From: Cyanobium usitatum str. Tous
GTDB taxonomy: Bacteria; Cyanobacteriota; Cyanobacteriia; PCC-6307; Cyanobiaceae
NCBI RefSeq assembly: GCF_003011885.1
Contig: NZ_PXXO01000001.1
Location: 124,001 to 188,000 of the forward strand
Reading direction: 5' to 3'
Length of the DNA: 64,000 nucleotides
A program made the position numbers and the translations under genes. Positions 15,615-47,529 of the stretch are shown piece after piece (positions within the stretch are counted from its first letter, which is position 1; every line of letters starts with the position of its first letter). The notes beneath the pieces are model-generated. The model made no database searches. It worked only from the letters and a program-made list of their open reading frames with translations, and was not told where the DNA came from.

Positions 15615-16925
15615 GTGCCGGTGGCTGGCCCAAAACTTAGGTCGCTGCCAAGGCCATTTCTGGTCATGTGGGCGGGCCAGCTGCTCTCAAACCTCGGCAC
15701 TCAGGTGAGTCTTTACGGCTTGGGGCTGTGGCTGTTCCAGCAGCATGGCCAGTTGAGTGCCTTTGCTGCGGTGGCGGTTGTGGTGCAGTTGGCCAAGTTG
15801 GCATCCCTTTCGCTAATGGGCCGTCAACTGGATCGTTGGCCGCCGCGACGGGTGATGCTTGCCGCTAACGGCCTCGGCAGCACCTGCACTTTGGGCCTGG
15901 CCTTCACCTTGATGATGCGTCCAGCCACCCTGTCACCGGTGTTGCTTTGCATTGGGCTGGCAGCAGCAGCAGAGGCGGCTCTGGTGGTGACCTGGTCCAG
16001 CCAACTGGCCAGATTTGTGTCTACAGAGCAGCTGGGAGCGGCCAGCGGGCTCTTCGCTGGATCGGATGGAGCTGTGGTGATGGCAGCCCCCCTACTCGGC
16101 GCTGTGCTGGCGGCGACGGCCGGGTTGCCGGGTGTACTCGTCACTGACAGCCTTACGTCACTTATTGCTGCGGCCTGCACGCTTCTGGTGGCCTGGCCGC
16201 AGTCGTTGTCAGCCCCACTCACTAAGGCTGCTGGTCATGAGGCTTCCTATCAGCTAGGGGTGCGCCATGCCTTGAGCAGGTTGTGGAGCAATCGGCGCTG
16301 GCGCCCCCTGTTGCAGATCAACAGCGTGGTGGTAGGCGTGTTTGCTGCCATTGAGATCGCTTTCCCCGCCTGGGTGGTGGCGGCAAGCGGCTCCCAGCGT
16401 CTGATCCTGGCTCTGGCCCTGGCCGGATTGGGCTATGCCGGTGGGCTCTGGCTATGGGCCCGGGTGCCTCGCTGCCATTGGCTGGACTGGCTGCGCATCG
16501 TGTTGCTGCTCCAGGCGGTGCTGCTGACCGGGGCTGGGCTGGTGTGCTTTCAGCAGTGGCAGGGGGTGTGGTTTTTGGCCGTGGGCCTATTTGCTGCTGC
16601 GGTTCCGGTTGCTCTAGGCGCCCTCCAGAGTCTTTGGTTGTGCTGGGTGCCGTTGGCTTTACAGCCGCGGCTGTTTGTCGGCCGTTACGGCCTGGAGTGG
16701 ATCTCCCGTCTAGTAGCTCTGCTGGGGATGAGTTTGCTGGCCGATAGGGTGATAGCCCCGCTGATCCGGGGGGGCTACTGGCCCGCTTGGCTGCTGGACG
16801 CCCTTGGCCGCGGCCCGGGGCGCCCGACGGCGATGGCGATCGGCCTGCTTGGCTGGGTTTTGCTGATTCCTCTTTGGCGGCTCTGGCGTCCCCTCGGGCG
16901 CCTTCACCTGGATGAAAATAAATAG
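15615..16925 (+). CDS. MFS transporter, possible cluster exporter
   Basis: A 436-residue major facilitator superfamily protein with about 12 hydrophobic segments and the loop 2-3 signature as GRQLDRWPPRRVM (about 69-81). It resembles the MFS_3 (macrolide efflux/enterobactin exporter) type. The start is GTG at 15615, supported by a strong AAGGAG at 15601-15606. Its stop overlaps the next gene's upstream GTG (TAGTG), and the PKS follows, so the three genes form one operon. Export of the cluster product or an intermediate is an inference from position. Confidence 0.82.
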   Translation: MPVAGPKLRSLPRPFLVMWAGQLLSNLGTQVSLYGLGLWLFQQHGQLSAFAAVAVVVQLAKLASLSLMGRQLDRWPPRRVMLAANGLGSTCTLGLAFTLMMRPATLSPVLLCIGLAAAAEAALVVTWSSQLARFVSTEQLGAASGLFAGSDGAVVMAAPLLGAVLAATAGLPGVLVTDSLTSLIAAACTLLVAWPQSLSAPLTKAAGHEASYQLGVRHALSRLWSNRRWRPLLQINSVVVGVFAAIEIAFPAWVVAASGSQRLILALALAGLGYAGGLWLWARVPRCHWLDWLRIVLLLQAVLLTGAGLVCFQQWQGVWFLAVGLFAAAVPVALGALQSLWLCWVPLALQPRLFVGRYGLEWISRLVALLGMSLLADRVIAPLIRGGYWPAWLLDALGRGPGRPTAMAIGLLGWVLLIPLWRLWRPLGRLHLDENK

Positions 16926-16927
16926 TG

Positions 16928-18031
16928 ATGAAAGTTCTGATTTATACATCCAGTGGCGGCACTGCTCACGACTCGGCCGCCGAGGCAATTCGGCAATGGC
17001 TGGAGCGTGAGCGCCCGAATATCGAAGTGCGTGTCGATCAGGTGTTGGAGCGCTCGAGTAGCACCTATCGAGGTGGCGTAGAGCTCTACAACTGGATCCA
17101 ACGCCGACGCCCCTGGCTGCACCAGATCTACTGGCGGGCTATGGAACTGGAAGATCTGGTGAAGCCAGGCACCGTTCTATTCGGGCGCCAATACTTGATT
17201 CGTGAGCTTCAGGACTTCCGCCCGGATGTGCTGATCTCCACCCACCCTCACACCAATCGTGGCCATTTCGATTTGGCTAAAAGGGTTTTGGGTAACCAGC
17301 TTCGTTGCATCACTTGCTGCACTGAGCTCGACGGCGGTTTTGGCTTTAGCCGCAACTGGCTCAGTCGCAGAACCGACCTGTTCTGGGCCCTTACATACGA
17401 GGTGGTCAGGGAAGTGCGACGACGACGTCCAGGGGTTCCAGTGGAGCTGCTTGGGCCCCTCCTTTACCCGGACTATCACGATGGTGGGCCGGCGCCTGCT
17501 GCTGTTGAAGGCCTACCCCTGTTGGTGCTCGGCACCGGCTCAAATGGCGCAAATAACCACATCCCCCTGCTGGAGCAGCTACTGCCGTTTGCTGGTCAGC
17601 TGACGGTGGCGGCCCTATGCGGCCGACGACAGATTGTGCGGGAGGAAGTGCAGGCCTGGGTAGATCGGCACCCAGCGCTGGCCGTTCAGGTGCTCGACTA
17701 TCAGGGACCGGATGCGATGGCTGATCTTTATCGTCGCGCCTGGGCCATGGTTAGCCGCCCAGGTGCCCGGACTGCCACTGAGGCTCTGTTTATGGGATGC
17801 CCACTGGTGTTCAACCATTACGGCACAACCATGCCTCAGGAATTGATAGCCCCCCGGTATTTTCATGCCCGAGAATTGGAGTCTGCCATTAGACGGCCTG
17901 TAGAGCTGTCATCCTTGGTGCACCAATGGCTGACCAATCCACCTGCGTATTTGGCCCTACGGCATCGCTATCAGCAGCACCTCCTGACGGCCGATCCGAG
18001 CACAATCCTCGAGCGCTTAGCCCTTGAGTAA
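16928..18031 (+). CDS. MGDG-synthase/MurG-type glycosyltransferase (GT28-like)
   Basis: A 367-residue GT-B glycosyltransferase. The N-terminal half has the MGDG-synthase-type motif SSGGTAHDSAAEAI and DVLISTHPHTN. The C-terminal half has the nucleotide-sugar site VSRPGARTATEALFMGCPLVFNH (about 273-296). Relatives transfer sugars to diacylglycerol or other lipids at the membrane. The ATG at 16928 or the GTG at 16925 is the start. The gene end overlaps the region of the PKS start, so it is translated with the PKS. A lipid or polyketide acceptor is likely but unproven. Confidence 0.8.
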   Translation: MKVLIYTSSGGTAHDSAAEAIRQWLERERPNIEVRVDQVLERSSSTYRGGVELYNWIQRRRPWLHQIYWRAMELEDLVKPGTVLFGRQYLIRELQDFRPDVLISTHPHTNRGHFDLAKRVLGNQLRCITCCTELDGGFGFSRNWLSRRTDLFWALTYEVVREVRRRRPGVPVELLGPLLYPDYHDGGPAPAAVEGLPLLVLGTGSNGANNHIPLLEQLLPFAGQLTVAALCGRRQIVREEVQAWVDRHPALAVQVLDYQGPDAMADLYRRAWAMVSRPGARTATEALFMGCPLVFNHYGTTMPQELIAPRYFHARELESAIRRPVELSSLVHQWLTNPPAYLALRHRYQQHLLTADPSTILERLALE

Positions 18032-18038
18032 CGTTGGG

Positions 18039-21000
18039 ATGCATCCGATAAACCCAATGCCAGAGCCGATTGCAATCGTGGGCATGGGATGCCGGCTTCC
18101 GGCGGGTATCAATTCACCTGAAAGTTTTTGGCGATTTCTAAGGGAAGGTCGTGAGGCGATCACAGAGGTGCCCCCCGACCGCTGGAACTTGGATCTCCAC
18201 TACAACCCTGACCCTGGCCATCCGCTCACTCAGCATGTGCGCCACGGCGGTTTTGTAGAGGGCATCGATCAGTTCGATGCGGCCTTTTTCGGCATTACGC
18301 CCAGGGAAGCGGTCTGTATGGATCCCCAGCAGAGACTTTTGCTTGAAGTGGCTTGGCGGGCCCTCGAGGATGCAGGCAAGCCCCTCGAGCATGTGCGCGG
18401 CACGGCGGTGGGGGTGTTTATGGGCATATCCAGCGCCGACTACAGCTCCTTGCTTTGGGCTTCGCGGGAGCGCTTCGTTACTCCCGACAACGAGCCATTC
18501 GTGTTGCCAGGTAACACAGGCTGCATTGCTGCAAACCGGCTCTCCTATTTCTTTGATTTCAAGGGCCCTAGCTTCACTGTCGACACCGCTTGCTCCTCCT
18601 CCCTGGTGGCGGTGCACTTGGCCTGCGAAAGCATCTGGCGGGGCGAATCCGAGGCTGCCCTCGCCGGTGGTGTGCAGGCGTTGATACACCCCGGCATTCA
18701 GATGAGCTTTTGCAAGGCCGGCCTGCTGGCGCCGGATGGGCGTTGCAAGAGTTTTGATGCCAGTGCTGACGGATATGTGCGTTCGGAGGGAGCCGGGGCG
18801 GTGCTGCTCAAGCCCCTAGCCGCTGCCGAATCAGAAGGAGATTCGATCTACGCGGTGATCCATGGCTCAGCTGTCAATTCTGATGGCCGCAGCAATGGCA
18901 TGGTTGCTCCCAATGCTCGGGCCCAGATCGCCTGCGTGCGCGCGGCCTTTGCCAAGGCAGGCATTGACCCATCGGCTACCCAGTACGTCGAGGCTCACGG
19001 TACGGGCACGCGCCAGGGAGATCCGATTGAACTTCGGGCTCTCGGCACCGTGCTTGGCGAAGGGCGTCCTGAGGGGGAGTCCTGTCGCGTGGGTTCGGTG
19101 AAAACCAACCTTGGCCACTCGGAAACCGCTGCTGGCATAACCGGATTGATCAAGGCGGCCCTTTGCGTAGCTAAGCGACAACTACCCCCCAGCTTGCATT
19201 GCCTCCGCCCAAATCCTTCCATTGATTTTGCCGGCCTAAAGTTACAGGTTCAGACCGAACTGGAGCCGTTCCCCCATCAGGATCGAGCCTTGGTGGTGGG
19301 GGTTAGTTCCTTCGGTTTCGGTGGAACCAATGCCCACGTCGTGCTGGCAGATGCTCCCCGCCAGAGCGCGCCTATTCGCTTTGGCGCGCGCATGCCGCTG
19401 CAGCTAATCACCCTCTCGGCTCGCACCCCTGAGGCTCTCAACAGGATTGCCTTCGAGCTAGTTCAGCAGTTGCAGGAGAAGCCCAACATAAAGCTCACCG
19501 ATCTGGCTGCTTCCGCAAACCTAGGCCGCACTTGCTTTCGAAAGCGGGCGGTCTTTCTGGCTCGAGATAAGGATCATCTGGTGTCCCAGCTCCAATCCCT
19601 GGCAAGCGACCGACGTCCTCTTCCTGAAGGCGTCTACTGCTCTACCGCATCAAGACGCCTTGGCAAGCTGGCTTGGCTATTTACTGGACAGGGTTCTCAG
19701 GCCCTTGGCATGGGCCAAGAGCTGCTGGCCCATCCCACTTTTCTTGAGGCTTTTGAAAGGGTTGCGGTTCTGCTGGATCCACAGCTAGATAAACCCCTGC
19801 GCGAGTTTTTGACGCCCCGGGATGGGGATGAGGCCGAGGCTGCGGCCCTGCTTAATCAGACCGGAGTTACCCAGCCAGCTCTGTTTGCGGTGGGCTATGC
19901 CCTCAGCCAGCTCTGGCAAAGCTGGGGAGTGCGACCTGATCTGCTGATGGGTCACAGCATTGGCGAGGTCCTCGCCGCTCACTTGGCTGGTGTTTTTTCG
20001 CTGGAGGATGCCTGTCGCCTGGTGTCTGCTCGTGGCCGACTAATGCAGGCTTTGCCTACAGCGGGCGGGATGGTGGCTTTGCTGGCTCCGCTTGACCAGG
20101 TCCAAGCCTTGCTAGCGCGCCACCCAGAGTTGGTGGTGGCGGCTTACAACGGCCCGGTAAACACGGTGGTGGCTGGACCCAGCGCTGCCTTGCGGCAGCT
20201 GCTGGCGGATGCTGATGCAGTTGGCTGCAACGCGCGCCAGCTGTCTGTTTCCCATGCCTTTCATACCCGGGCAATGGCTCCGATGCTTGAGGCCTTCGAG
20301 CTCGAACTGCGCCAGCTCAGCTTTGCGCCCCCCAGTAAGCCGCTGGTGAGCAACCTCACTGGTTTGCTAGCTGGCGCGGAGATTGCCCAGCCGGACTACT
20401 GGTGTGACCAAATACTCAGCCCTGTGCAATTTGCCAAAGGTATTGACACCCTTGTCTCACAAGGTGCCCAGGTGTTTCTTGAGATCGGTGCTCGCCCCAC
20501 GCTCATTGGCATGGCGCGTCAATGCACTCAGGATCAATCCCTCACTCACTGGCCTTCCCTGGAGCAGGGAAAGTCTGACTGGCAGGTGCTTTTTACGAGC
20601 CTCGGTGGCCTCTGGCGCGGTGGCTACGGCATTGACTGGGCCGGATTCCATCGCCCCTTCCCTGCCCTTCGCATCACCCTGCCCGGCTACCCCTTCGAGA
20701 GGCAGCGCCATTGGTGGAGCCGCGAGGGAGAGTCCCAAGCCCCAGGTGGCTTCTGGCTGAACCATTTGGGGATCACGGCTCTAAACAGCACGCCTCAAGC
20801 CCCTGTTTTCCAGCCTGGAGTGGATAGTTCATCTTCCAGTGGTTCGCGTTCTGCTGCTGAGAGGTTCACTCGGATCGATCTGCCTGGCGAAACGGAGGTG
20901 CACCAGACGCGTTTATGTAGTGAGGGAACCGACCTAAGCGACCACCGGATTCGCACTCAAGCGGTGTTTCCGGCCGCGGGGTTCATTTTGGCGGGACTGG

Positions 21001-24000
21001 CGTTACTGGACCAGGCCGAGCAGCCCCTGAAGCTGGGTTCGATGAAACTGGATCAGCCGCTGAAGTTGGTTGCTCCAGGTTCAGCGGCCTGGCTCCAGGG
21101 CCATTGGTGCACTGATGGACTGACTTTCTACAGCCGGCCCGATGCTGCCGTGCTCTCCCCCTGGCAGCGTCATGGCGAAATGTCCCTAGCTGGGGACTTG
21201 CCGGTAGAGCCGCCATTTGCCCTGTCGCCGGCGCCGGACTCGGTGCAGCAGGTGGAGCCTGATAGCTTCTACGAAACTTTGGCGCAGGTGGGTCTGGAGT
21301 ACGGCCCTACTTATCGCGGCCTGCGGCAACTCAAGCTCGCGGAAGGTCAAGCCTGGGCTGAGCTGGAGCGACCGGAGAGGGGCCAGGACCGGGGGCTACT
21401 CGACAGTTGTTTCCAGGCTGTGGCTGTGCTCCTGGATCCAGCGGCCCGGGAAGGCCAGCTGCTTCTCCCCGTGGGGCTGGAGCAGCTTTGGCTGGCGGCC
21501 TTGCCCCTACCTGATCGTTTGCAATGTCAGGTGCGGCTTCAGCCGAGTCAGGAGCCGGCCTTCGTTCTCGCTGACCTAGTGCTCCATGAGGGCGGCGCTC
21601 CCTTGGGCTGGATTCGGGGCTTCAGGCTGCGGCGCCTGCCTAGGCAGGCTATGGAGTGGTTGTTTCCCCTGCCGGAAGTTAACCCTAAGCCAGGCGCGCA
21701 GAACTGGTTGCTGGAAACAAACTGGCAGGAGGCAACGAACTTCAATTCACAGCCGCTGTTAGGCCCCGCACCGCTGAGACTTGCTGAAGGCGAGGTGATC
21801 CCCCCAGGAGTAGGGCCGCTTTTGCTCTGGCCCGATCTCACTAAGCCTGCCTGTGAGTTGGAGGCGTTGGCAGCCCAAATGCTGCTTTGGGCCCAGCAGC
21901 TGGCAGCCGTCCCGCCCAGGCCTGTTTGGCTTGTGCTGCAGGGAGAGGGGCCTCTCGCTGCCGGCTTGGCAGCGTTTGGGCGTTCGGCTGCGCTTGAACA
22001 GCCCGCCCTGGGTTGGACAGTGCTTCTTATTCAAGAAGGCAGCCCGCCAGCTGCTGGCGATTGGTCAGCCCTGTTTGCGCTAGGTGAGCGCGAACCTTTG
22101 CTGGCCTGGCGTGATGGCAGGGCCTGGGTGCAGCGTCTTAAGCCCCTGGCCGATGCGCCCTTCCTCTTGGAAAGCGGTTCGTTGGGCAGCCTGGAGACGC
22201 TGCGGGCAGTGCCCCTGGAGAGGCGGTCGCCTGGCCCCGGGGAACTGGAACTGGCGGTGGAGGCCACGGGCCTCAATTTCCGCGATGTGTTGAACGCTCT
22301 GGGACTGCTGGTGGGCTACAGCCGTGAACTTGGCATGGATGCTGATGCCCGCATGCCCTATGGCGGCGAATGTGTGGGTCGGGTGGTGGCCGTTGGCCCT
22401 GGTGTGGATCCGGGGCTGGTGGGTGAGCGGCTGCTGGCCGCCTTGGCGGTGGGCAGTCTTGCTAGCCACGTTGTTTGCCGTGCCGCCCTTTGTGTGCCAC
22501 TGCCACCGGCGCTAGATCCGGCCCTGGGGGCGAGCGTCAGCACGGCTTTCCTCACAGCTATCTACGGCCTCCAGACCCTGGCCCAGCTGCTCCCTGGCGA
22601 CACTGTGCTGATCCATGCGGCCGCGGGGGGGGTTGGTCAGGCGGCCCTGCAGGTGGCCCGACGCTGCGGTGCGCGGGTGTTCGCTACCGCCAGTGCGGCT
22701 AAGCAGGCGGGTCTGCTGCAGCAGGGGGTTGAGGCTGTGTTTGATTCCCGCAGCCTCGACTTTGCCGAGCAGGTGCTGGCCGTCACCGGCGGTCGGGGAG
22801 TGGATGTGGTGCTCAACAGCCTGAAGGGTGACTGGGTGGAGGCAAGTTTTGCTGCTCTGGCTGACGGCGGCCGTTTTGTGGAGCTTGGCAAAATTGAGAT
22901 TTGGAGTCGGGAGGAGGCACTCCGCCGCCGGCCCGATAGCAGTTACCTGCCCTTCGATCTGCTGGAGGTGGCCGCTGCCGACCCCGGCCTTGTGCGCGGC
23001 TTATTGCTGGAGCTGCTGGCCGATCTTGAGGCCGGCCACTACGCCCCCATCCCGCTGCAGGCGTTTCCGATCGAGCGCGGCGTGGAGGCTTTCCGGCTGA
23101 TGGCCCAGGCCCGGCATGTGGGCAAGGTGGTGATCATCCAGCCGGAGCGTCCGGCGGCCTGGACGATCCGCCCAGAGGCTTGTTATTTAGTGACGGGGGC
23201 CTTCGGTGGGATCGGCCAGCAGCTCTGTATCTGGTTGGCTGAGCAAGGTGCTCGTTCCCTGGTGCTCTTAGGACGCAGACCCGACCCCATTTTGGTGGAG
23301 CGCTTGCAGGCCCAAGGGGTTGGCTGCGAAGTGATCGCCTTCGATCTGGCTGCAGATCCGGTAGAGCGGTTAGCCGAGGCTCTGCGGGGCCAACCTTTGG
23401 CTGGCCTATTCCATGCCGCCGGTCATTTGGATGACGGTCTTCTGGAGGGGCAGACCCCCGCCCGCCAGGCCGAGGTGATTGCGCCCAAATTGGCTGGCTG
23501 GCAGCGGCTGGAGTTGGCCTGCCGGCTGGCCAACTGCCAGCCCGAGTTTGGTGTGGCCTTTTCATCGATGGCCGCTTTGCTCGGATCCCCCGGGCAAACC
23601 AGCTATGCCACGGCAAATGGCGCTCTCGATGGCTTGGCTGCAGCTGCAAACGACTGGCCTCTGCTCTCGGTGCAGTGGGGGCCTTGGGGCGGTGCCGGCA
23701 TGGCAGAGGGGCTTGAGCGCCGCTTTGCCGCCCTGGGGGTTGGCCTGCTTCCACCTCCCCAGGCATTTGGGGCCTTGGGATTGCTGTTGGAGCGGGGCAG
23801 GTCTGGTTGCGTAGCCGTGCTCAACAATGACTGGCCCAAGCTGGCAGCCCAGCTAGGTAACCGTCAGGCGTCCATGCTGCAACCGCTGCTTGATGTTGAC
23901 GGCCGCGGCGGTCAAGGGGGCGAGGGTGAGATCCTGCGCCGCCAGCTCGCCGAGGCCGACTCTGACCAGCGCTCGGCGCTGGTGGTTGCGCTGCTGCAAC

Positions 24001-25436
24001 AGCGCTTGGCGATTGTGATGGGGCTGGAGGATGGGCGCAGTCTTGATTCCGGTGATTCCCTGTTCCACATCGGCCTTGATTCGCTCATGGCTGTGGAGCT
24101 GGCTGCAGGGATCCAGCGGGACCTGGGGGTGAAGTTGGAGCTTGAATCCCTCGCTGGCGATCCCACGATCGAAGCTCTGGCGGCGGTATTGCTAGAGGCT
24201 CTGGTAGATCCCCAGGCTGGGGCAGAGCGGGTGTTGGATTTGGGCCGGGAAGCCCAGTTGGCATCTCACTGGAGCTTGCCAGCGGTCTCCACCACTAGCT
24301 CCTCAGCAGCAGCAGGCCCCAGGGAGGCGATTTTGGTTACGGGCGCTTCCGGCTTCCTGGGGGCTTACCTGCTGGCGGGCCAGCTGCAGCGCTGGGATCA
24401 AGTGCGGGTGCGGTGTCTGGTGCGGGCCAGCGATCCCTCCCAGGGGCTGACGCGGATTCGCGCCAACCTCGATCACTACGGACTCTGGCAGGACAGCTGG
24501 AGCGAACGTCTGGTAGCAGTGCCCGGCGATCTGGCCCAGCCCCGCTTCGGTCTCTCGGAGGATGGCTTTGCTGAGCTGGCTCAAGGCCTAGGGGGCATCC
24601 TGCACAACGGTGCCCAGCTCAGCCAGATGGCCCCCTACAGCCAACTGGAGGCGGCCAATGTGGGCGGCACCAAGACGGTGCTCGACCTGGCGGTGCATCC
24701 GGCCGCCGTCCGGGCCCTGCCTGTGCAGCTGATCTCCAGCGTGGCGGTCTTTGAGGCGGCCGCCTACCGCAACCGGGCGGTGCTGGAAAGTGACGACGTG
24801 TCGGAGTGGCGCGGCATCCATGTGGGCTACTCCCAAACCAAATGGGTGAGTGAGCGGCTGGTTCTGGCCGCTGGGGCTGCCGGGTTGCCGGTCACGGTGT
24901 ATCGCCCGCCGCTAATTGGTGGCCATTCCCAGACAGGCGCTTGGCACCAGGACGACCTGCTGCACCGGCTGCTGCGGGGTTGCCTAGCTCTGGGTATGGC
25001 GCCCGATCTGCCATGGGAGCTGGATCTGGTGCCGGTGGACTACGTGGCCGATGCGGTTACGGCTCTGGCCTGGACGGCGGAAGCGGTGGGCCGCAACGTG
25101 CACTTGCAACACCCCCAGCCGATGCTGCTCGCCGATCTGCTTGGCAACCTGATCGAGCGGGGGGCACCGCTGGAGCTGGTGTCGATGGAGCGCTGGCTGG
25201 AGGCGATCGATGCTGATCCGGCCAACCCCCTGCACGGCATTCGCGCCTTCTTCGTGCGGCGCTGGGGCGACGAGCAGCTCACCTACCCCGAGCTCAATCA
25301 GGCCGGGGTGCGGGCCCGGCCCAGCTGCCTGGCCACCGTGGCGTCCCTGGCGGCCCATGGCGTGCGCTGCCCGGGCTTCGAGGAACTGATCGGCCCCTAT
25401 GCCCGCAGCCTGATCACCGGAGCCGCAGCTCTGTGA
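18039..25436 (+). CDS. type I polyketide synthase, KS-AT-DH-ER-KR-ACP-thioester reductase
   Basis: A 2465-residue single-module, fully reducing PKS. KS (about 8-440): Cys185 in DTACSSS, His320 in EAHGTGT and His360 in NLGHSE form a complete triad. AT (about 545-900): Ser640 in GHSIGE, and HAFH at 739-742 indicates malonyl-CoA. DH (about 935-1215): His969 in DHRIRTQAVFP, with the usual Gly replaced by Thr, and DSCFQ at 1122-1126. ER (about 1375-1700): HAAAGGVGQAAL from 1526. KR (about 1714-1930): Ser1843 and Tyr1856. ACP: Ser2015 in GLDSLM. The terminal reductase (about 2096-2420) has GASGFLG and YSQTK (Tyr2264, Lys2268), which releases the chain as an aldehyde or alcohol. There is no loading domain. 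A TTG at 18024, overlapping the upstream gene, is an alternative start. Confidence 0.93.
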   Translation: MHPINPMPEPIAIVGMGCRLPAGINSPESFWRFLREGREAITEVPPDRWNLDLHYNPDPGHPLTQHVRHGGFVEGIDQFDAAFFGITPREAVCMDPQQRLLLEVAWRALEDAGKPLEHVRGTAVGVFMGISSADYSSLLWASRERFVTPDNEPFVLPGNTGCIAANRLSYFFDFKGPSFTVDTACSSSLVAVHLACESIWRGESEAALAGGVQALIHPGIQMSFCKAGLLAPDGRCKSFDASADGYVRSEGAGAVLLKPLAAAESEGDSIYAVIHGSAVNSDGRSNGMVAPNARAQIACVRAAFAKAGIDPSATQYVEAHGTGTRQGDPIELRALGTVLGEGRPEGESCRVGSVKTNLGHSETAAGITGLIKAALCVAKRQLPPSLHCLRPNPSIDFAGLKLQVQTELEPFPHQDRALVVGVSSFGFGGTNAHVVLADAPRQSAPIRFGARMPLQLITLSARTPEALNRIAFELVQQLQEKPNIKLTDLAASANLGRTCFRKRAVFLARDKDHLVSQLQSLASDRRPLPEGVYCSTASRRLGKLAWLFTGQGSQALGMGQELLAHPTFLEAFERVAVLLDPQLDKPLREFLTPRDGDEAEAAALLNQTGVTQPALFAVGYALSQLWQSWGVRPDLLMGHSIGEVLAAHLAGVFSLEDACRLVSARGRLMQALPTAGGMVALLAPLDQVQALLARHPELVVAAYNGPVNTVVAGPSAALRQLLADADAVGCNARQLSVSHAFHTRAMAPMLEAFELELRQLSFAPPSKPLVSNLTGLLAGAEIAQPDYWCDQILSPVQFAKGIDTLVSQGAQVFLEIGARPTLIGMARQCTQDQSLTHWPSLEQGKSDWQVLFTSLGGLWRGGYGIDWAGFHRPFPALRITLPGYPFERQRHWWSREGESQAPGGFWLNHLGITALNSTPQAPVFQPGVDSSSSSGSRSAAERFTRIDLPGETEVHQTRLCSEGTDLSDHRIRTQAVFPAAGFILAGLALLDQAEQPLKLGSMKLDQPLKLVAPGSAAWLQGHWCTDGLTFYSRPDAAVLSPWQRHGEMSLAGDLPVEPPFALSPAPDSVQQVEPDSFYETLAQVGLEYGPTYRGLRQLKLAEGQAWAELERPERGQDRGLLDSCFQAVAVLLDPAAREGQLLLPVGLEQLWLAALPLPDRLQCQVRLQPSQEPAFVLADLVLHEGGAPLGWIRGFRLRRLPRQAMEWLFPLPEVNPKPGAQNWLLETNWQEATNFNSQPLLGPAPLRLAEGEVIPPGVGPLLLWPDLTKPACELEALAAQMLLWAQQLAAVPPRPVWLVLQGEGPLAAGLAAFGRSAALEQPALGWTVLLIQEGSPPAAGDWSALFALGEREPLLAWRDGRAWVQRLKPLADAPFLLESGSLGSLETLRAVPLERRSPGPGELELAVEATGLNFRDVLNALGLLVGYSRELGMDADARMPYGGECVGRVVAVGPGVDPGLVGERLLAALAVGSLASHVVCRAALCVPLPPALDPALGASVSTAFLTAIYGLQTLAQLLPGDTVLIHAAAGGVGQAALQVARRCGARVFATASAAKQAGLLQQGVEAVFDSRSLDFAEQVLAVTGGRGVDVVLNSLKGDWVEASFAALADGGRFVELGKIEIWSREEALRRRPDSSYLPFDLLEVAAADPGLVRGLLLELLADLEAGHYAPIPLQAFPIERGVEAFRLMAQARHVGKVVIIQPERPAAWTIRPEACYLVTGAFGGIGQQLCIWLAEQGARSLVLLGRRPDPILVERLQAQGVGCEVIAFDLAADPVERLAEALRGQPLAGLFHAAGHLDDGLLEGQTPARQAEVIAPKLAGWQRLELACRLANCQPEFGVAFSSMAALLGSPGQTSYATANGALDGLAAAANDWPLLSVQWGPWGGAGMAEGLERRFAALGVGLLPPPQAFGALGLLLERGRSGCVAVLNNDWPKLAAQLGNRQASMLQPLLDVDGRGGQGGEGEILRRQLAEADSDQRSALVVALLQQRLAIVMGLEDGRSLDSGDSLFHIGLDSLMAVELAAGIQRDLGVKLELESLAGDPTIEALAAVLLEALVDPQAGAERVLDLGREAQLASHWSLPAVSTTSSSAAAGPREAILVTGASGFLGAYLLAGQLQRWDQVRVRCLVRASDPSQGLTRIRANLDHYGLWQDSWSERLVAVPGDLAQPRFGLSEDGFAELAQGLGGILHNGAQLSQMAPYSQLEAANVGGTKTVLDLAVHPAAVRALPVQLISSVAVFEAAAYRNRAVLESDDVSEWRGIHVGYSQTKWVSERLVLAAGAAGLPVTVYRPPLIGGHSQTGAWHQDDLLHRLLRGCLALGMAPDLPWELDLVPVDYVADAVTALAWTAEAVGRNVHLQHPQPMLLADLLGNLIERGAPLELVSMERWLEAIDADPANPLHGIRAFFVRRWGDEQLTYPELNQAGVRARPSCLATVASLAAHGVRCPGFEELIGPYARSLITGAAAL

Positions 25437-25515
25437 TTATTTCTCTGTGATCAGTTCTCAGTGATCAGTTCTCAGTGATCAGTTTCCAGTGATCAATTGC
25501 CTGTGATCGCAGCGC
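25432..25515. repeat. six tandem 14-bp units joining PKS stop and GT2 start
   Basis: Units begin at 25432, 25446, 25460, 25474, 25488 and 25502, each opening with (T/A)GTGAT. The middle ones read close to AGTGATCAGTTCTC. Unit 1 contains the PKS stop TGA, and units 5-6 contain the GT2 start codons. Each unit carries the overlapping start/stop word GTGA, and four carry the palindrome TGATCA. Confidence 0.85.
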
Positions 25516-26732
25516 TTCTAGCCGGCGCCCTGCTGGCCACCCTCGGCTTGCAGCTGCTGCTCACGCTCGCCTTCGCGGTGGTGGTGCGGCGGCGGCTGCG
25601 GCGGCTCCCCGGCCTGGCCCAGCCAGCGCCGGCGGCCGAAGTGGTGTTGTGCCTGCGGGGAGCCGACCCCAGCCTGGCTGATGCTCTCATGGCTCTGGCG
25701 GGGCAGACCTACCCGGGCCCCTGGCGACTGTTGGTGGTGGTCGATTCCCGCCAGGATCCGGCCTGGCCCATGGCCCAGCAAACGATCGCCCGGCTGGAGG
25801 CGGCGGGCCAGGCTGGCTGGCAGGCGGCCCGGCTCACCCCCCTGGCGGCACGGCCGGCCCAGGGTTCGCTCAAAAGCGCCTCGCTGCGCCAGGCCTTCGG
25901 CGAGCTGGATGCCGCCACCGAGCTGGTGGCCCTGGTGGATGCCGATGCGGTGGTGGCGCCCGGTTGGCTGGCGGCCCTGGCGGCGGGCTGCGGCCCGGAT
26001 GGCGTCGGGGCGGTGTCTGGCAACCGTTGGTATGCCCCGGAGCAGGGCAGTGGCCCCGGGCTGGTGCGGGCGATCTGGAATGGCGGCGCCCTGGTGCTGA
26101 TGACCCTGCTGGGCATCCCCTGGGGGGGATCGCTGGCGGTGCGCCGCCAGCTGATCGAGCCGAGCGGCTGGCGGGAGCTGCTGGCTACCAGCCTCTGCGA
26201 GGACACCGCCCTGTCCGCCCCGCTGGCCCGCTGCGGTTGGCGCTACCAGTTTCGGCCGGAGCTGATCGCCCTCGACCGCGACGACGGCATCGCCCTGCGG
26301 CCGCTGCGGCGCTGGATCAGCCGCCAGCTGTTGACGGCGCGGCTGCACCACTCGGCCTGGCCCCTGGTGGCCCTGCACGGCCTGGGCAGCGCCCTGCTGG
26401 TGCTTGTGGCGTTGCTGTCGTTGCTAGCGGCGTTGCTTGTGGGACGGCTGGCCGAAGCGGGCCTGCTGCTGGCGGCGCTGATCGGCTACGAGCTGGGTTG
26501 TGTGGCGCTGCTGCTGCTGATCGAAGCGGTGGCCGCCCGTGCCCTGCAGCCCCTGGGTGGCCGCCTGCCTCCTCCGAATCTCGCCCATGCTTGGCGGTTG
26601 CTGCGCTGGTTGCCTCTCACCCAGTGGGTCTATGGGCTGGCAACCCTGCGGGCGGCCTTGGCCCGGCGGGTGGAGTGGCGCGGGGTCCACTACCGCGTGC
26701 GGGGCCGCGGCGTGGAGTGGCTGGAGGGTTAG
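25497..26732 (+). CDS. membrane GT2 family glycosyltransferase
   Basis: A 411-residue GT-A glycosyltransferase with an N-terminal transmembrane helix (about 4-30), a catalytic domain and two to three C-terminal membrane segments (about 285-345). The metal-binding DxD is DAD at 148-150, and the catalytic base region is CEDTAL (Glu235, Asp236), followed by LRRWISRQL. The topology resembles ceramide-glucosyltransferase-like GT2 enzymes and the heterocyst glycolipid enzyme HglT, but identity is not claimed. The start is TTG at 25497 or GTG at 25503. It lies 60 bp after the PKS, across a tandem repeat, and may glycosylate the PKS-derived alcohol. Confidence 0.82.
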   Translation: MPVIAALLAGALLATLGLQLLLTLAFAVVVRRRLRRLPGLAQPAPAAEVVLCLRGADPSLADALMALAGQTYPGPWRLLVVVDSRQDPAWPMAQQTIARLEAAGQAGWQAARLTPLAARPAQGSLKSASLRQAFGELDAATELVALVDADAVVAPGWLAALAAGCGPDGVGAVSGNRWYAPEQGSGPGLVRAIWNGGALVLMTLLGIPWGGSLAVRRQLIEPSGWRELLATSLCEDTALSAPLARCGWRYQFRPELIALDRDDGIALRPLRRWISRQLLTARLHHSAWPLVALHGLGSALLVLVALLSLLAALLVGRLAEAGLLLAALIGYELGCVALLLLIEAVAARALQPLGGRLPPPNLAHAWRLLRWLPLTQWVYGLATLRAALARRVEWRGVHYRVRGRGVEWLEG

Positions 26733-26745
26733 CCCTGGCGCGGCT

Positions 26746-27357
26746 TTAGCCCTTCAGCATGAGCTTGGCGAGGATCTGCATCGACTGGCGCAGGTTGGCT
26801 TCGGTGAGGTCGTAATACGAGCCGATCAGGAAGCCGGGAATCTCGGGCACCACCTCGATCTGGTGTTTCACGATCACGCCGCCCTTGACGGGGGTGATCG
26901 TCCAGGTGCCCTGCAGCTTCTTGATGCGGTCGCCGCTGATCAGCTCATAGCTCATCTGGCTGGGGGCCGTTTCCTGCACACGCAGCAGCGCCTTGATGCG
27001 CTGGCCGAAGGTATAGGGGGCTTGGTAGATCTGGGCTAGCTCCAGGCTGCGGCCCGAGCGGCTCACCACCTTGGCCTGTTGGATGTCCGGCATGACACCG
27101 GCCATCGACTCGTAGTTGGTGAGTACGTTCCAGGCCTTCTGGGCCGACACCGGCACCTGCACCGAGGCGGTGTAGCGCCCCTGCTTGCCCTGCAGGTTGA
27201 CGCGGCCAGGGGCGGGGCTGGCGGCGGCCAGCCGCACGGGTGCCGGAGGCACGGCAGCGGCAGCCGGTAGGACCGCCCCTGGCAGCGCCTGTAAGGTGGC
27301 AACAAGCGCCAGCGTGCCGGGGAGATTGCGTCGTTGCAGCAGGCGGAAGACCAGCAC
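26746..27357 (-). CDS. SRPBCC (polyketide cyclase/START-like) secreted protein
   Basis: A 203-residue protein with an N-terminal signal-like segment (about 13-38, ending in an AAAAV-type region) and a C-terminal SRPBCC domain: VQVPVSAQKAWNVLTNYESMAGVMPDI, then the IEVVPEIPGFLIGSYYDL block and a long terminal helix. SRPBCC folds form a hydrophobic cavity for lipids or polyketides. The start is the GTG at 27357; the frame is open upstream to 28056, but that part lies opposite the hydrolase gene and is not protein-like. It is the only opposite-strand gene within the cluster, so membership is uncertain. Confidence 0.7.
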   Translation of the reverse strand: MLVFRLLQRRNLPGTLALVATLQALPGAVLPAAAAVPPAPVRLAAASPAPGRVNLQGKQGRYTASVQVPVSAQKAWNVLTNYESMAGVMPDIQQAKVVSRSGRSLELAQIYQAPYTFGQRIKALLRVQETAPSQMSYELISGDRIKKLQGTWTITPVKGGVIVKHQIEVVPEIPGFLIGSYYDLTEANLRQSMQILAKLMLKG

Positions 27358-28515
27358 GGTGTCCAGGCGGATCACTTCATTGTCGATCAGTACCAACCGC
27401 GGCGTCGTGTCTATTTCTTCAGCGGTTTTGATCCCCGCGGCGCCAGCTTCTATTACCGCCTGTTCAGCGAGCAGGTGCGCCAGCTCAAGCGCCGCAGCGG
27501 CCGGCGGCTGCAGGTGGGCCACCGTCGCGGCCAGCAGGTCGACCGGTTGCTGAGCCGCTGGCAGGTGCGCGAGGACGGCGCCTTGGGCCTTGATTTCTGT
27601 TTCCTCCACTGGGATGACATCGCCCGGGCCCATTGGCCCCGGAGCCCGCTGCGGATGCTGGCGGCGGTGCTCTCCTTCGCTGGCTGGTATGTGGGCCAGG
27701 CCGGCGTGCTGCGCATCGCCCGAATGTCGGGGCGGGTGGCGCTGTGTGGCCTCTACCCGGTGCTGTTCACCGCCGGTTCGCTGATCGCCACCGCGGCGGT
27801 CACAGCTGTGCTGCTCTGGCCCCTGCAGCTGCTGGGCATCGGTGGCTGGCTGCTTGGAGCGATCGGAGCCCTGCTGGTGCTGGGTCAGCTGATGCTGGCC
27901 TGGCGTCTGGCTAACCAGGTAGGTGTGGTTTGGCTGTTCCGCTCGATCCGCTTCACCCACCGGCTCGGCCAGGCCCGCGATGGCGATCTGCGGGGGCGGG
28001 TGGCCGAGCTGGCCGAGCGGATCCTCAGCCTCGAGCAGCAGGACCCGGCAGACCAAGTGTGGCTAACAGGCCACAGCAGCGGCTCGTTTGTGATGACGAT
28101 GCTGGCGGCCGAGTTGCGGCGCCAGGGCGCCGACCAGCAGCTGGCCGGGCGGCTGCGGTTGCTCAGCCTGGGCCAGAACCTGGCCAACCTGGCGGTGCAC
28201 GGCAAGGCCCGCGGCTTCCACGCCGACCTGGCCTTGCTGGCCCAGGAGCCGCGGCTGCCTTGGCTCGACATCACCTCCCGCGACGACTACCTCTGCTTTG
28301 CGGCGGTGGATCCCTACCAGAGCTGTGGGGTGCACCGCCCGGGGGCTGGGTCCTATCCGGAGCTGCGGCTGATCCCGCTGGCCCAGCGCCAGGGGCTCAC
28401 CAGCCTTGGGGAGCTGCTCAGCCACCAGTTTGATCTGCACTTCGAATATTTGCGCACGGCGCCGCCGGAGCGCAGCGGCGGCTTCGACCTGATCGAGGAG
28501 TTGCTGGCGCCATGA
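27334..28515 (+). CDS. membrane protein with serine-hydrolase (GHSSG) motif
   Basis: A protein of up to 393 residues. The N-terminal RRVYFFSGFDPRGASFYYRLF segment begins an alpha/beta-hydrolase-like region, and two or three transmembrane helices occupy about 125-195. The nucleophile elbow is TGHSSGSFV at about 248-256. It may be a lipase- or esterase-like enzyme anchored in the membrane. The start is uncertain: TTG at 27334 overlaps the divergent SRPBCC gene by 24 bp, while ATT at 27379 is also possible. The end overlaps the P450 start by 4 bp (ATGA), so the two are co-translated and probably act on the same compound. Confidence 0.68.
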   Translation: MQQAEDQHGVQADHFIVDQYQPRRRVYFFSGFDPRGASFYYRLFSEQVRQLKRRSGRRLQVGHRRGQQVDRLLSRWQVREDGALGLDFCFLHWDDIARAHWPRSPLRMLAAVLSFAGWYVGQAGVLRIARMSGRVALCGLYPVLFTAGSLIATAAVTAVLLWPLQLLGIGGWLLGAIGALLVLGQLMLAWRLANQVGVVWLFRSIRFTHRLGQARDGDLRGRVAELAERILSLEQQDPADQVWLTGHSSGSFVMTMLAAELRRQGADQQLAGRLRLLSLGQNLANLAVHGKARGFHADLALLAQEPRLPWLDITSRDDYLCFAAVDPYQSCGVHRPGAGSYPELRLIPLAQRQGLTSLGELLSHQFDLHFEYLRTAPPERSGGFDLIEELLAP

Positions 28516-29966
28516 CCAATCCCCCCACCTCGCCGGAGGCGAAAGAACCGATTTATCCGCTGCCAGAGCCCTACACACCGAATTTTCTGCGCCGCATCCG
28601 ACGCGGCCTGTATTCCTGGTTTGGCCTGCTGAACGAATGGGACTTCCGCATCCCTGTGGGGGCGCTGCGGTTTATGGGGCTGAACCTGCTGCTGGTGAAT
28701 GACCCGGCGGCGGTGCGCCAGGTGATGGTGAGCGAGGTGGAGGCCTTCCCCAAGCACCCCTACACCTTGTGGATCCTGGAGCCGCTTATCGGCCGGGCGA
28801 TCTTCTCGGTGAACGGTGAGGAGTGGGCCCAGCAGCGGCGGCTGGTGGACCAGGCCTTCCAGGTAGCCCAGCTGCAGCGGGTGTTGCCCCAGATGGAGGG
28901 GGCCGTGGAAGCCCTGATGGAGCGGCTGGAGGCCCAGGTGGATGGCTGCACGGGTGATGGCGGCTCCATTGATGGCTGCCCCGTTGATGCAGACGCCGAG
29001 ATGACGCTGGTGACGGCCGATGTGATCGTGCGCACGATCCTGTCGCGGCCGCTGGAGGGGGCCGAGGCTGAGGCGATCTTTGCGGCGTTTGCCCGCTACC
29101 AGAAACGGGCGGGCCGGGCCCTGATGCTGCGCTTTCTGCGGTTGCCGCGCCGCCGGCTGCAGGGCTACCTGGCCACCCATGCCGCCCCGATCCGCGCCTG
29201 GATCGCCGCCGCCATCGAGGCCCGACTCGACACCGGTGACGACAGCTCAGAGCGCTCTAGCCCTCAAGACCTGCTGCAGGCCCTGATCGAGGCCCGCGAT
29301 CCCCAGAGCGGCGCCCGCTTCAGCCGTGATGGTCTGGTGGATCAGGTGTGCTTCCTGTTTCTGGCGGGCCACGAAACCTCCGCCAGTTCCCTGGGGATGG
29401 CGGTGTATTTGCTGGGCTGTTTCCCCGAGGTGCAGCAGCGCCTGCGCGCTGAGGTGCTGCAGGCGCTTGGCTCCCGGGCCGGCGCGCCGGATCGGACGCT
29501 GGGCTTTGATGATCTGCGCCAGCTCTCTTACGGGGCCGCGATTTTCAACGAAACCCTGCGGCTATACCCGCCGGTGAGCTTCTTTATCCGCGAGTCTCAG
29601 GCCAACACCGAGCTGGCAGGTAGCCGCTGCCCGATGCGCGCCCTTGTGACGCTGTCTCCCTGGGTAGTCCAGCGCCACGAGCAGCACTGGAGCGATCCCA
29701 ACGCCTTTAGGCCCGAGCGCTTCCTGAGTGATGCCAATGCAGACGATCGGCGTTGGGCCCGTGATGCTTTTCTGCCCTACGGCCTGGGGCCGCGCAAGTG
29801 CCCGGGGGCGGCGTTTGCCCAGCAGGAGGCCCTGCTGGTGCTGGCGGAGCTGGTGCGCCGCTTTGAGGTGCTGCCGGATCCGGAGCACGAGCCGGAGCTG
29901 GTGGCGCGGCTCACCCTGCGCTCTCGCAATGGCATCCGGGTGCGCCTGCTGCGCCTCAGAAGCTGA
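28512..29966 (+). CDS. cytochrome P450
   Basis: A 484-residue cytochrome P450. The I-helix oxygen-binding motif is AGHET at 285-289, the K-helix ExxR is ETLR in FNETLRLYPPVSF, and the haem-thiolate loop is YGLGPRKCPG with Cys430 as axial ligand. The canonical first Phe of the haem motif is Tyr here. It has no long N-terminal membrane anchor. P450s insert one oxygen atom from O2, so this enzyme is a candidate hydroxylase for the reduced chain made by the PKS. It overlaps the hydrolase gene by 4 bp and runs 11 bp into the convergent barrel gene. Confidence 0.93.
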   Translation: MTNPPTSPEAKEPIYPLPEPYTPNFLRRIRRGLYSWFGLLNEWDFRIPVGALRFMGLNLLLVNDPAAVRQVMVSEVEAFPKHPYTLWILEPLIGRAIFSVNGEEWAQQRRLVDQAFQVAQLQRVLPQMEGAVEALMERLEAQVDGCTGDGGSIDGCPVDADAEMTLVTADVIVRTILSRPLEGAEAEAIFAAFARYQKRAGRALMLRFLRLPRRRLQGYLATHAAPIRAWIAAAIEARLDTGDDSSERSSPQDLLQALIEARDPQSGARFSRDGLVDQVCFLFLAGHETSASSLGMAVYLLGCFPEVQQRLRAEVLQALGSRAGAPDRTLGFDDLRQLSYGAAIFNETLRLYPPVSFFIRESQANTELAGSRCPMRALVTLSPWVVQRHEQHWSDPNAFRPERFLSDANADDRRWARDAFLPYGLGPRKCPGAAFAQQEALLVLAELVRRFEVLPDPEHEPELVARLTLRSRNGIRVRLLRLRS

Positions 29967-31893
29967 AGCCGAGCCGGGCCCCGACGCGCACTTGGTCGTT
30001 GCCGAGTAGCTGGCCGAGGTCGTAGAGGCCGGCGGCGTTCGACACGTAGACGTCCACGATGGTGGAAGGCGAAGCCAGCCAGCGCAGGGCCAGGCTGCCG
30101 TTGGTGCCATTGCCGCCGCCCAGATCGGTGGCCACCAGATTCAATTCGGGGATCAGCTGGAAGCGCTTGCCCAGCTGGAGGTTGGCCCCCAGGCCCACGC
30201 CCCAGCTGGTGCCGGCGCCATTCCAGGCCAGTTTCGGGTTGAGGTTGAAGGCCAGGGTGGGGGTGGCCTCCCAGGTGTTCATGGTTTCAAAGAACAGGTA
30301 GCCCTGCTTGCTGCTGGCGTCTTCGTTGCGGCCGAGGCTGATGCGGCCGGCGGCCCAAACCGGCAGGGATTTGCTGGGCCGGAACACCATCGCCTTGCCA
30401 CCGAAGCGCAGGTTGAGGCCGCCATCGCTGGCGAAGGTGTTCACGAAGCTGTTGCGGGGCTCGATGCCGTTGAACATGCCGGCCGCCAGCTGGAACTGGA
30501 AGTCGTTGGACACCGAATAGCCGCTGCCGGCGAAGAGGTTGCCGCGGCTATCCCCGTTTAGCCATATTTGCGTGGTGCCGTTGGCGGGGGTGAGGGCGGT
30601 GTTGACGAACAGGCCACCGAGGGCCAGGGAGGCCTGGCGGGCCGTGTAGCGGGGGCTGGGGGAGTCGGGGGCGCCGGGCGTCCAGGCAAAGCGGGCGCTG
30701 AGCATGGGCTCGTTGGGCGCGCTGGGCAGGGCCAGGATGGCGGTGGCCGGGCTGAGGCCAAAGCCATTTGTGACGCTAGCCTCCAGACCAATGCGGGGGT
30801 TGACGGCGATGCGGGTGCCGAGGCTCAGGATCGGCACGCGTGAATACACCAGATCGCCATCGAAGGCGTTGTTGCCCGGGCCCAGGGGCACCATGGCCGA
30901 GCCAAACAGCTGCACCTGGTTGCCGATGCGGTAGTTGGCGCCCACCCCGAGGCTGACGTTGGTGCCGTAAAAATCACCGGCGCCGCCCTGGTCGGCCCCC
31001 TGACTGCCAGGCAAAAAGCTCACCGCCGGCACAAAGGAGAGCTGCAGGTTGCGGTTGGCCTGCCAGGAGAGCGGCAGGGAGAGGGCACCCACCCAGTTGC
31101 GGGTGAACACCTTCTGGCCGGAGTTGTTGAAGATGTTGGCTGTGCCGGCGTCATCGCAGCTCACAGGGCCGCCGCAGCCGCTGCCCACGGTGAAGAGCTC
31201 CAGGGCCCCCTCGGCGGCAAGTTGCCACTTGTTGCTACCGGCCAGGCGGGCGCGGAGGCTGCCGCCGTAGATGGTCCAGAGGTTGGCGGGCTGGGAGGGC
31301 CGGCTGGGGATCGGCGTGAAGAGGGGGTCGTCGGCGTAGGTGTAGTAGCCGCTGAGCATCAGGTTGCGGTTCACCACTAGGTCGGCGCGGAAGCCGTAGT
31401 TCTGGTTGCCGGAGCCCCCGGCGGCGCCGCCATCGCCCGGGCTCACCTGCTGGAAGTTCACCTGGTCGCCGCCCTCGGGGGGGAGCACGGCGGTGGGCAG
31501 CTGACCCAGGCGCAGCAGGGTTGGGTAGTCGTCCCAGGTGGGGATCAGCTCGGCCAGGCGGGCCTCCGCTTCGGCGTAGCTGGCGGGCGGCAGCTGGGTG
31601 GCGGTCTCAGCAGCAGCTGGGGCGCCTGGTTGCACTACCACCCAGCTGGGCTGGGCAGTGGTGGTGGTGGGGCCTTCATCGACGGGGGTCCACACCACGG
31701 CAGGCCCACCCGTTTCGAGGCTGGTGGCAGGGCCGGCAGGATCCAGCGGTACAAACTGCACCGCTGCCGGTGGGGCACCGGTTGCAGGCGGCAGGGGCTG
31801 CCACAGTACCGGTTGGGCGCCTGCGGCGGCAGTCAGCCCGAAACCGATCAGGGCGGCCGCTGCAGGGGTCATCCGACGCCGATCAGGCCGCAT
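29956..31893 (-). CDS. outer-membrane beta-barrel protein of the exopolysaccharide locus
   Basis: About 644 residues from the ATG at 31893. The basic start MRPDRRRM plus the hydrophobic TPAAAALIGFGLTAAAGA gives a good signal peptide; an ATG at 31872 would lose the basic residues. A proline/threonine-rich linker (to about 130) leads to a long region of alternating beta-strand patterns ending in VRVGARLGFSF, the C-terminal aromatic typical of barrel proteins. It follows the Wzz-like gene with an 11-bp overlap, suggesting a role in polysaccharide export. The product and specificity are unknown. Confidence 0.75.
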   Translation of the reverse strand: MRPDRRRMTPAAAALIGFGLTAAAGAQPVLWQPLPPATGAPPAAVQFVPLDPAGPATSLETGGPAVVWTPVDEGPTTTTAQPSWVVVQPGAPAAAETATQLPPASYAEAEARLAELIPTWDDYPTLLRLGQLPTAVLPPEGGDQVNFQQVSPGDGGAAGGSGNQNYGFRADLVVNRNLMLSGYYTYADDPLFTPIPSRPSQPANLWTIYGGSLRARLAGSNKWQLAAEGALELFTVGSGCGGPVSCDDAGTANIFNNSGQKVFTRNWVGALSLPLSWQANRNLQLSFVPAVSFLPGSQGADQGGAGDFYGTNVSLGVGANYRIGNQVQLFGSAMVPLGPGNNAFDGDLVYSRVPILSLGTRIAVNPRIGLEASVTNGFGLSPATAILALPSAPNEPMLSARFAWTPGAPDSPSPRYTARQASLALGGLFVNTALTPANGTTQIWLNGDSRGNLFAGSGYSVSNDFQFQLAAGMFNGIEPRNSFVNTFASDGGLNLRFGGKAMVFRPSKSLPVWAAGRISLGRNEDASSKQGYLFFETMNTWEATPTLAFNLNPKLAWNGAGTSWGVGLGANLQLGKRFQLIPELNLVATDLGGGNGTNGSLALRWLASPSTIVDVYVSNAAGLYDLGQLLGNDQVRVGARLGFSF

Positions 31894-34842: not shown

Positions 34843-35018
34843 TGGGATTGAACTTACCCGCCTGCTCCCGCCAAGCAGGGGGTAGCAGACGATTTTCGCG
34901 GCGGCTGGAAGCCGCCCGGGTATAGCCATGAGATAGTCGACTCGATCTGGCGAGATGGTTGAGCCCAGCTCCCGTCCCCGGTTGTTGTTCGGGGAGTTGG
35001 TGTGCGCTGGTAACTGAC

Positions 35019-37533: not shown

Positions 37534-37538
37534 TGGTG

Positions 37539-37928: not shown

Positions 37929-37939
37929 CACGGGCAAGG

Positions 37940-38218: not shown

Positions 38219-38243
38219 GGGGTGCGGATCCATCGGAAACCAA

Positions 38244-38265
38244 CTTAGTCCACTTGTGGACCAAG
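38244..38265. promoter_or_regulatory. palindromic operator of the toxin-antitoxin operon
   Basis: CTTAGTCCAC and GTGGACCAAG form 10-bp arms, 9 of 10 matching, around a TT centre, 26 bp upstream of the antitoxin ATG at 38218 and 17 bp before the fcl ATG. Phd/YefM antitoxins typically bind such palindromes to repress their own operon. Binding here is inferred. Confidence 0.7.
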
Positions 38266-38281
38266 CGGGAGGCATCGGCTG

Positions 38282-38974: not shown

Positions 38975-39117
38975 GCAGCGGCAGTGAGCAGGAAAGAGTG
39001 CCTTTGGCCGTGAATTGCCTCTGAGGCCGTTTTCTGAGGACTTTTGGTCTCCTGTTCAGCCACTTTGGGCTGGTTTTGGAGGCTGAATCAAGGTGTTCAG
39101 ACACACCAAGCCCCTGG

Positions 39118-46178: not shown

Positions 46179-47501
<1,323 letters not shown>

Positions 47502-47529
47502 CCACCCGTCCCCGTCCCATTAATCAGTC

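Follow-up and report, generated by a model that had tools for sequence, protein, structure and literature searches.

Long-chain (poly)ols that are built by a polyketide synthase (PKS), released reductively and fitted with a sugar head group are known from the cyanobacterial hgl islands, whose synthase is split and Pfa-like (HglE with its partners) and which use the glycosyltransferase HglT and the Hgd ABC exporter. Because hgl-bearing non-heterocytous cyanobacteria make C24 1,3-diol glycosides, analogues of the heterocyst glycolipids (PMC11804610), glycolipids of PKS origin have a precedent, as a class, outside heterocysts. Here we describe a gene cluster that shares this logic in a 64,000-nucleotide stretch, termed the window, of the 2.5-Mb genome of the Cyanobiaceae member Cyanobium usitatum str. 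Tous (contig NZ_PXXO01000001.1, positions 124,001–188,000). In contrast to the hgl islands, it combines one modular PKS, carrying a cis-acyltransferase (AT) and its own thioester reductase (TR), with glycosyltransferases (GTs) of the GT28 and GT21 types, a cytochrome P450, an alpha/beta-hydrolase (HYD), an MFS exporter and a predicted outer-membrane barrel. We consider it probable that the cluster encodes an ancient picocyanobacterial cell-envelope lipid pathway, the product of which would be an exported, hydroxylated and glycosylated reduced-polyketide lipid, and, judged by its sequence, it is an independent, differently built example of a PKS-glycolipid system.

Other described systems resemble the cluster in part. 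Mycobacterial MAS/Pks2-type PKSs have the same KS-AT-DH-ER-KR-ACP order, and the window PKS reaches 908 bits on the NCBIfam Pks2 profile, short of the cut-off of 2400; it differs by a malonyl-type AT, a C-terminal TR instead of Pap transfer, the GTs and the P450 in the cluster and the lack of an acyl-AMP ligase. Yeast sophorolipid-type clusters comprise a P450, two UGTs and an exporter, and their products arise by chain hydroxylation and the addition of two sugars in turn. This likeness is one of logic only, and we set these clusters apart by description rather than by sequence: here the chain would be made de novo by a PKS and released reductively, the GTs are of the prokaryotic GT28 and GT21 types, and there is no acetyltransferase. 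Our search of the open-access literature found no paper describing this PKS lipid cluster in picocyanobacteria.

Organization of the cluster and its polyketide synthase

All named genes were found at 15615–29966 with intact frames, in the plus-strand order MFS, GT28, PKS, GT2/GT21, HYD and P450, with the gene for an SRPBCC protein antisense. Their junctions overlap or abut (MFS/GT28 at 16925, GT28/PKS at 18024–18031, HYD/P450 at 28512–28515), as in one operon. The same layout, antisense SRPBCC gene included, recurs across many Cyanobiaceae genera, which excludes a chance arrangement. The cluster extends beyond 29966 and takes in an antisense gene for a predicted outer-membrane protein (OMP) at 29956–31869. 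The original prediction had placed a PKS, two GTs, a P450, a membrane hydrolase, an SRPBCC protein and an MFS transporter together and had taken all domain motifs to be visible; the genes are indeed all present in intact frames, as is every catalytic motif of the PKS. Its gene boundaries needed amendment: the coordinates held, but SRPBCC lies on the minus strand, the HYD start is placed about 18–20 codons inside its frame, and the unit passes 29966.

The PKS (18024–25436, plus strand; 2470 aa) is a monomodular type I reducing enzyme with complete KS, AT, DH, ER, KR, ACP and TR domains and their catalytic residues, assigned by Pfam and NCBIfam profiles and intact motifs. The ketosynthase (KS) domain (18063–19349; PF00109/PF02801) contains the catalytic Cys and both His within TACSSS, EAHGTG and NLGH, and the AT domain (19665–20543; PF00698 and alignment) is of the malonyl type, with the motifs GHSIGE and HAFH. 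The DH domain (20859–21668; PF14765) keeps its catalytic H and DxxxQ, the ER domain (22179–23135; PF13602/PF00107) has the motif GGVGQAA, and the KR domain (23172–23723; PF08659) shows GxGxxG, LDD and S-Y-N; its LDD, which not all relatives retain, makes the window domain one of the B type. The ACP domain (23979–24191; PF00550; GLDSLM) is followed by the TR domain for reductive release (24321–25403; PF07993, 7e-58), which carries GxxGxxG and YxxxK and passes the cut-off of the thioester reductase family TIGR01746 (278.6 bits against 213). The locus encodes neither a loading domain nor an acyl ligase, and the genome holds one phosphopantetheinyl transferase that is predicted to be able to arm the ACP.

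Membership of the hgl islands was rejected. The PKS scores 339 bits on TIGR02813 (PfaA/HglE type) against a cut-off of 1010, on which other cyanobacterial Pfa/HglE-type proteins reach 1100–1456 bits, and in a KS tree it falls in a clade apart from them. The hgl set of several KS and AT proteins (HglC, D, E and others) was not found either, as the genome contains only two KS (PKS and FabF) and two AT (PKS and FabD).

Glycosyltransferases and accessory proteins

GT28 (16925–18031, plus strand) is a putative lipid GT resembling monogalactosyldiacylglycerol (MGDG) synthase and processive diglucosyl-diacylglycerol synthase, with MGDG_synth and GT28_C domains (PF06925 and PF04101) that both exceed the Pfam cut-offs. 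Its nearest solved structures are the processive diacylglycerol beta-glucosyltransferase 9wde (2.6e-22) and the MGDG synthase 4wyi. The membrane enzyme GT2/GT21 (25497–26732, plus strand) is HpnI/ceramide glucosyltransferase-like, matching PF13506 with 41 bits (cut-off 21.7) and HpnI with 62 bits, which is under the HpnI cut-off of 310; its nearest solved structure is the ceramide glucosyltransferase 26qf. The MFS exporter (15615–16925, plus strand), the conserved first gene, has about 12 hydrophobic segments and by its profile matches (PF07690, 6e-15; TIGR00900, 8e-16) is related to drug/H+ antiporters. The START-like SRPBCC protein (about 26746–27363 with an inferred start, minus strand; PF03364/PF10604), conserved in its antisense position, has an N-terminal hydrophobic signal, at 3–21 of the analysed piece, and is probably exported.

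HYD (27334–28515, plus strand) contains a GHSSG serine and a membrane-type helical insertion. In sequence searches it scored above the cut-off of no Pfam or NCBIfam family, and its lipase matches in the PDB were only weak. The protein has hydrophobic segments at 135–184. In its AlphaFold model (pLDDT 92) residues 1–18 are disordered, and the true start is placed some 18–20 codons inside the 27334 frame, at about codon 19. TesA is the nearest fold (VIA-align; Z 11.4, 171 residues, 3.6 Å), and the structural neighbours are thioesterases and lysophospholipases with Z near 11. They point to a generic alpha/beta-hydrolase core, which in HYD bears a long insertion of helices, and not to a particular function; a Foldseek search returned no match below 1e-3. 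The P450 (28512–29966, plus strand; PF00067, 1e-64) overlaps the HYD gene by an ATGA and, judged by this sequence, is translationally coupled to it.

The cluster is old and patchily distributed in Cyanobiaceae

HYD was detected in 40 of 400 Cyanobiaceae genomes, representing 16 of 59 genera, nearly always with the PKS cluster. A sample of 390 genomes spanning the cyanobacterial class contained no HYD outside this family, so that a wide cyanobacterial distribution was rejected. We fetched and mapped the regions around the HYD matches (genomes and loci are given by our handles, G and L). We recovered the full seven-gene set at 24 loci in 23 genomes. The gene order is constant apart from a few exceptions, SRPBCC is antisense in every case, and other loci are cut by contig ends or hold truncated copies. 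Among the carriers are Cyanobium sp. T1B-Tous and FACHB-13342, Synechococcus sp. 8F6 and metagenome-assembled genomes of freshwater Synechococcus, together with AG-673-A03, a marine Synechococcus, and numerous single-cell genomes of Prochlorococcus, e.g. AG-363 and AG-409. The original prediction had held that PKS homologues found without their neighbours would speak against it; MFS, GT28, SRPBCC, HYD and P450 were consistently present, and the prediction was not refuted on this count.

The pairwise identities of the seven proteins correlate with one another (0.73–0.96) and with those of GyrA (0.82–0.95; 20 loci), and the FastTree topologies largely agree. The KS identity to the window is 68–91% over all genera. 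This co-divergence with GyrA indicates a cluster that is old in Cyanobiaceae, mostly vertically inherited and many times lost, giving its patchy occurrence, and it disfavours horizontal spread as the main explanation. For the PKS of L020/G261, an identity above the GyrA prediction may reflect transfer.

Absence of the AT domain and a two-protein variant

The PKS occurs in three forms. The first, a single protein with AT as in the window, is found in Cyanobium-like and freshwater lineages. The second is the form of every orthologue from Prochlorococcus and from marine Synechococcus of clade g35: 30–35 residues remain of the 293-residue AT domain, and the other domains have full length. Four AT-less genomes that are single-contig or complete (G031, G052, G034, G294) encode one FabD-like protein as their sole AT and no dedicated free-standing trans-AT gene. 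Because this protein is the only AT left, the simplest reading is that FabD probably loads malonyl in trans on the marine PKS. The marine orthologues thereby resemble trans-AT type I PKSs in lacking an integrated AT, but differ in having only FabD rather than a dedicated trans-AT gene, in being monomodular reducing enzymes and in having AT-intact orthologues.

The freshwater Synechococcus lineage g19 looks intermediate. In two of its five copies (L026 and L032) the active Ser of the AT is replaced by Gly, and in L032 part of the domain is deleted, so that the g19 AT looks to be decaying under relaxed constraint. In L026 a frame change also breaks the PKS in two, which marks either an assembly error or a pseudogene. 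In the KS tree the AT-bearing forms are nested among the AT-less ones, a pattern compatible with repeated loss or with one gain, of which repeated loss is favoured because of the decay in g19. The series from intact over decaying to absent AT, with FabD as the sole AT left, makes the transition from cis to trans AT directly testable.

The third form is a freshwater variant consisting of two proteins (G200, G084, G108 and, partially, G244; loci L140, L141, L143 and L065), where the TR resides on a second protein of the composition KS-KR-ACP-TR, in which no AT was detected. The final round of this protein is expected to yield a 3-hydroxyl, so that the predicted product would have a 1,3-diol-like end.

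A predicted outer-membrane protein as the eighth conserved gene

The OMP (29956–31869, minus strand) is a predicted beta-barrel that we identify as an eighth conserved gene by linkage, co-occurrence and model. It has no Pfam name, is conserved at 39–82% identity among relatives and adjoins the cluster almost wherever the flank is long enough to tell, including L037, where the gene for the polysaccharide co-polymerase Wzz, the next gene in the window, lies some 200 kb off. In four Wzz loci without the PKS, blast did not detect it. A strong homologue (E<1e-120) is present in 34 of 40 HYD-positive and in 10 of 360 HYD-negative genomes (Fisher 3e-34, kinship ignored). The model consists mostly of beta strands at a pLDDT of 70, and aligners place residues ~120–398 and ~408–637 on separate 12-stranded barrels; with low confidence, given a shallow alignment, this suggests two 12-stranded barrels in tandem. 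By sequence, the conserved unit thus comprises the PKS-TR, two lipid-type GTs, HYD-P450, MFS, SRPBCC and the predicted barrel.

Association with surface polysaccharide genes

Beyond the OMP lie genes for a Wzz-family polysaccharide co-polymerase without a kinase domain (31883–33649, minus strand; PF02706), a Wza-type polysaccharide export protein (33649–35049, minus strand; PF02563, SLBB) and an initiating sugar transferase of the Bac_transf type (34959–36362, plus strand; PF02397, 1.8e-61). A phylum-wide study found Wzz/Wza-type genes to be usually absent in picocyanobacteria (PMC4594306). In 15 of 19 genomes the distance between the Wzz gene and the cluster is 1.4–3.3 kb, and in most of them this Wzz is the only strong copy, and across the 400 genomes a strong Wzz accompanies HYD in 24 of 40 carriers, compared to 20 of the 360 others. 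Even in G084 and G200, where the order inside the cluster has changed, the PKS end adjoins OMP-Wzz.

In 41 of the 43 loci from outside cyanobacteria that could be assessed, HYD and P450 stand together as a two-gene unit. The genes kpsC and/or kpsS flank this unit in 12 of 46 non-cyanobacterial loci, from three phyla, with the order kpsC-HYD-P450-kpsS in L100, L108, L110 and L135. KpsS and KpsC construct the lipid terminus of group 2 capsules, on phosphatidylglycerol (PMC10148158). This flanking by kpsC/kpsS was seen among L088–L135 in several phyla and at L050 (10247–16739) in a Cyanobiaceae genome without the PKS; in G032, which is of the latter kind, kpsS and kpsC adjoin HYD-P450. A Polaromonas plasmid encodes, consecutively, a capsule protein, a lipid GT, HYD and P450. 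The PKS cluster itself differs from group 2 capsule loci in having no KpsC/KpsS partner and Wzz/Wza as neighbours: among the HYD-bearing genomes searched, KpsC/KpsS were absent from G000 and all others except G261 and G032. The association raises the serious possibility that HYD-P450, and perhaps the whole cluster, may act at the lipid side of surface polysaccharides. Our open-access literature search found no paper on HYD-P450 in capsule loci, and the link gives a definite starting point for studying a lipid-modifying step in capsule biogenesis that has yet to be explored.

Two further contexts of HYD were observed. In Zavarzinia (L132, L133) LpxR is followed by HYD-P450 and then by a GT21-like glycosyltransferase, a second lipid-GT combination outside cyanobacteria, and on Methylorubrum extorquens pCMU01 (L149) a HYD homologue without a P450 stands directly 5' of a glycosyltransferase.

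Proposed pathway and alternative explanations

In the pathway that we propose, the KS would be primed from fatty acyl-ACP, since neither a loading domain nor an acyl ligase is encoded. The chain would be extended with malonyl, each round being fully reduced by KR, DH and ER, with FabD supplying malonyl loading in trans where the AT is absent, and the TR would release a fatty aldehyde or alcohol. The P450 would then hydroxylate the chain, HYD edit or transfer an acyl group on the same lipid, and GT28 and GT21 add sugars, before the glycolipid reaches the outer membrane by way of MFS, SRPBCC and OMP. In the weakest step, suggested by the conserved Wzz/Wza position, the lipid would be placed with, or anchor, an exported polysaccharide. 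The domain content is read directly, and we infer the order of steps, the starter, the number of iterations, the sugars and the hydroxyl position from PKS logic. The earlier proposal of a hydroxylated, glycosylated long-chain alcohol or aldehyde outside the heterocyst setting is partly supported, by the lipid-type relatives of the GTs and by the lack of an hgl-type synthase, the product itself staying a prediction. With the OMP, the AT-less and two-protein forms and the polysaccharide and capsule link, none of which that proposal included, the likely role shifts from a free secondary metabolite towards a cell-envelope lipid.

Several observations weigh against this pathway. The GT21 gene is missing from the two-protein PKS loci, the single-module and two-protein forms are compatible with more than one iteration number and chain length, the substrates of the GTs, MFS and P450 are not readable from family, and the P450 could act on another substrate. 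Divergent OMP homologues occur in Prochlorococcus without the PKS, Wzz occurs in genomes without the PKS, and the Wzz adjacency is broken in G143, G214, G265 and G052. The co-occurrence tests of OMP and Wzz with HYD are uncorrected for phylogeny, and the polysaccharide link may reflect no more than proximity in the genome.

The same neighbourhood admits a role in which the PKS product, rather than being a free glycolipid, anchors the polymer exported by Wza/Wzz in the membrane or forms its modified terminus, and in which HYD-P450 is a general device for tailoring capsule lipid termini. The Wzz/Wza genes beside the cluster, although usually absent in picocyanobacteria (PMC4594306), agree with this, as do the kpsC/kpsS-flanked loci, G032 among them, and the Polaromonas row. 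Nearly all carriers of the PKS cluster lack KpsC/KpsS, however, and many HYD-P450 pairs have no capsule gene in the fetched flank. Export of the Wza/Wzz type, moreover, normally runs on undecaprenyl-linked intermediates and needs no other anchor, leaving this role possible but less probable. Its wider version, with HYD-P450 as a general module that tailors polysaccharide lipid ends in Pseudomonadota, Campylobacterota, Verrucomicrobiota and Cyanobacteriota, around which a picocyanobacterial PKS-glycolipid anchor was built and in which the marine PKS, without an AT domain, borrows FabD from fatty acid synthesis, we consider doubtful.

The patchy distribution (40 of 400 genomes) and the kinship of the MFS protein to drug/H+ antiporters would also suit a secreted bioactive or allelopathic polyketide glycoside, exported by MFS and glycosylated for solubility or self-protection. 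Mostly vertical descent and the KS identities of 68–91% speak more for a core lipid than for a metabolite that is exchanged rapidly, and the GTs are of lipid type and the linked gene encodes an outer-membrane protein rather than resistance, which makes such a compound unlikely. That the cluster is a reduced member of the hgl island family is highly improbable: PKS, reductive release and glycosyltransferase follow the same overall logic, and the product of the two-protein variant would end in a 1,3-diol-like group, like those of the hgl islands (PMC11804610), but the KS stands outside the Pfa/HglE-type clade, with a score far under the family cut-off, and the genome holds no other PKS-type KS. 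If the cell-envelope lipid pathway holds true, its conserved and largely vertical descent reaching Prochlorococcus single cells would mean a new envelope lipid, a possible biomarker or a barrier to grazing or phages. Picocyanobacteria dominate ocean photosynthesis.

Other features of the window

Further along the polysaccharide locus, at 36742–40102, the frames for GDP-mannose dehydratase and epimerase are split or shortened beside a DUF772 transposase, and the locus looks to have been disrupted there by a mobile element. At 46212–50198, chlN, chlB and chlL, encoding the dark-operative protochlorophyllide reductase, stand in a row, an arrangement noted by eye and ordinary.

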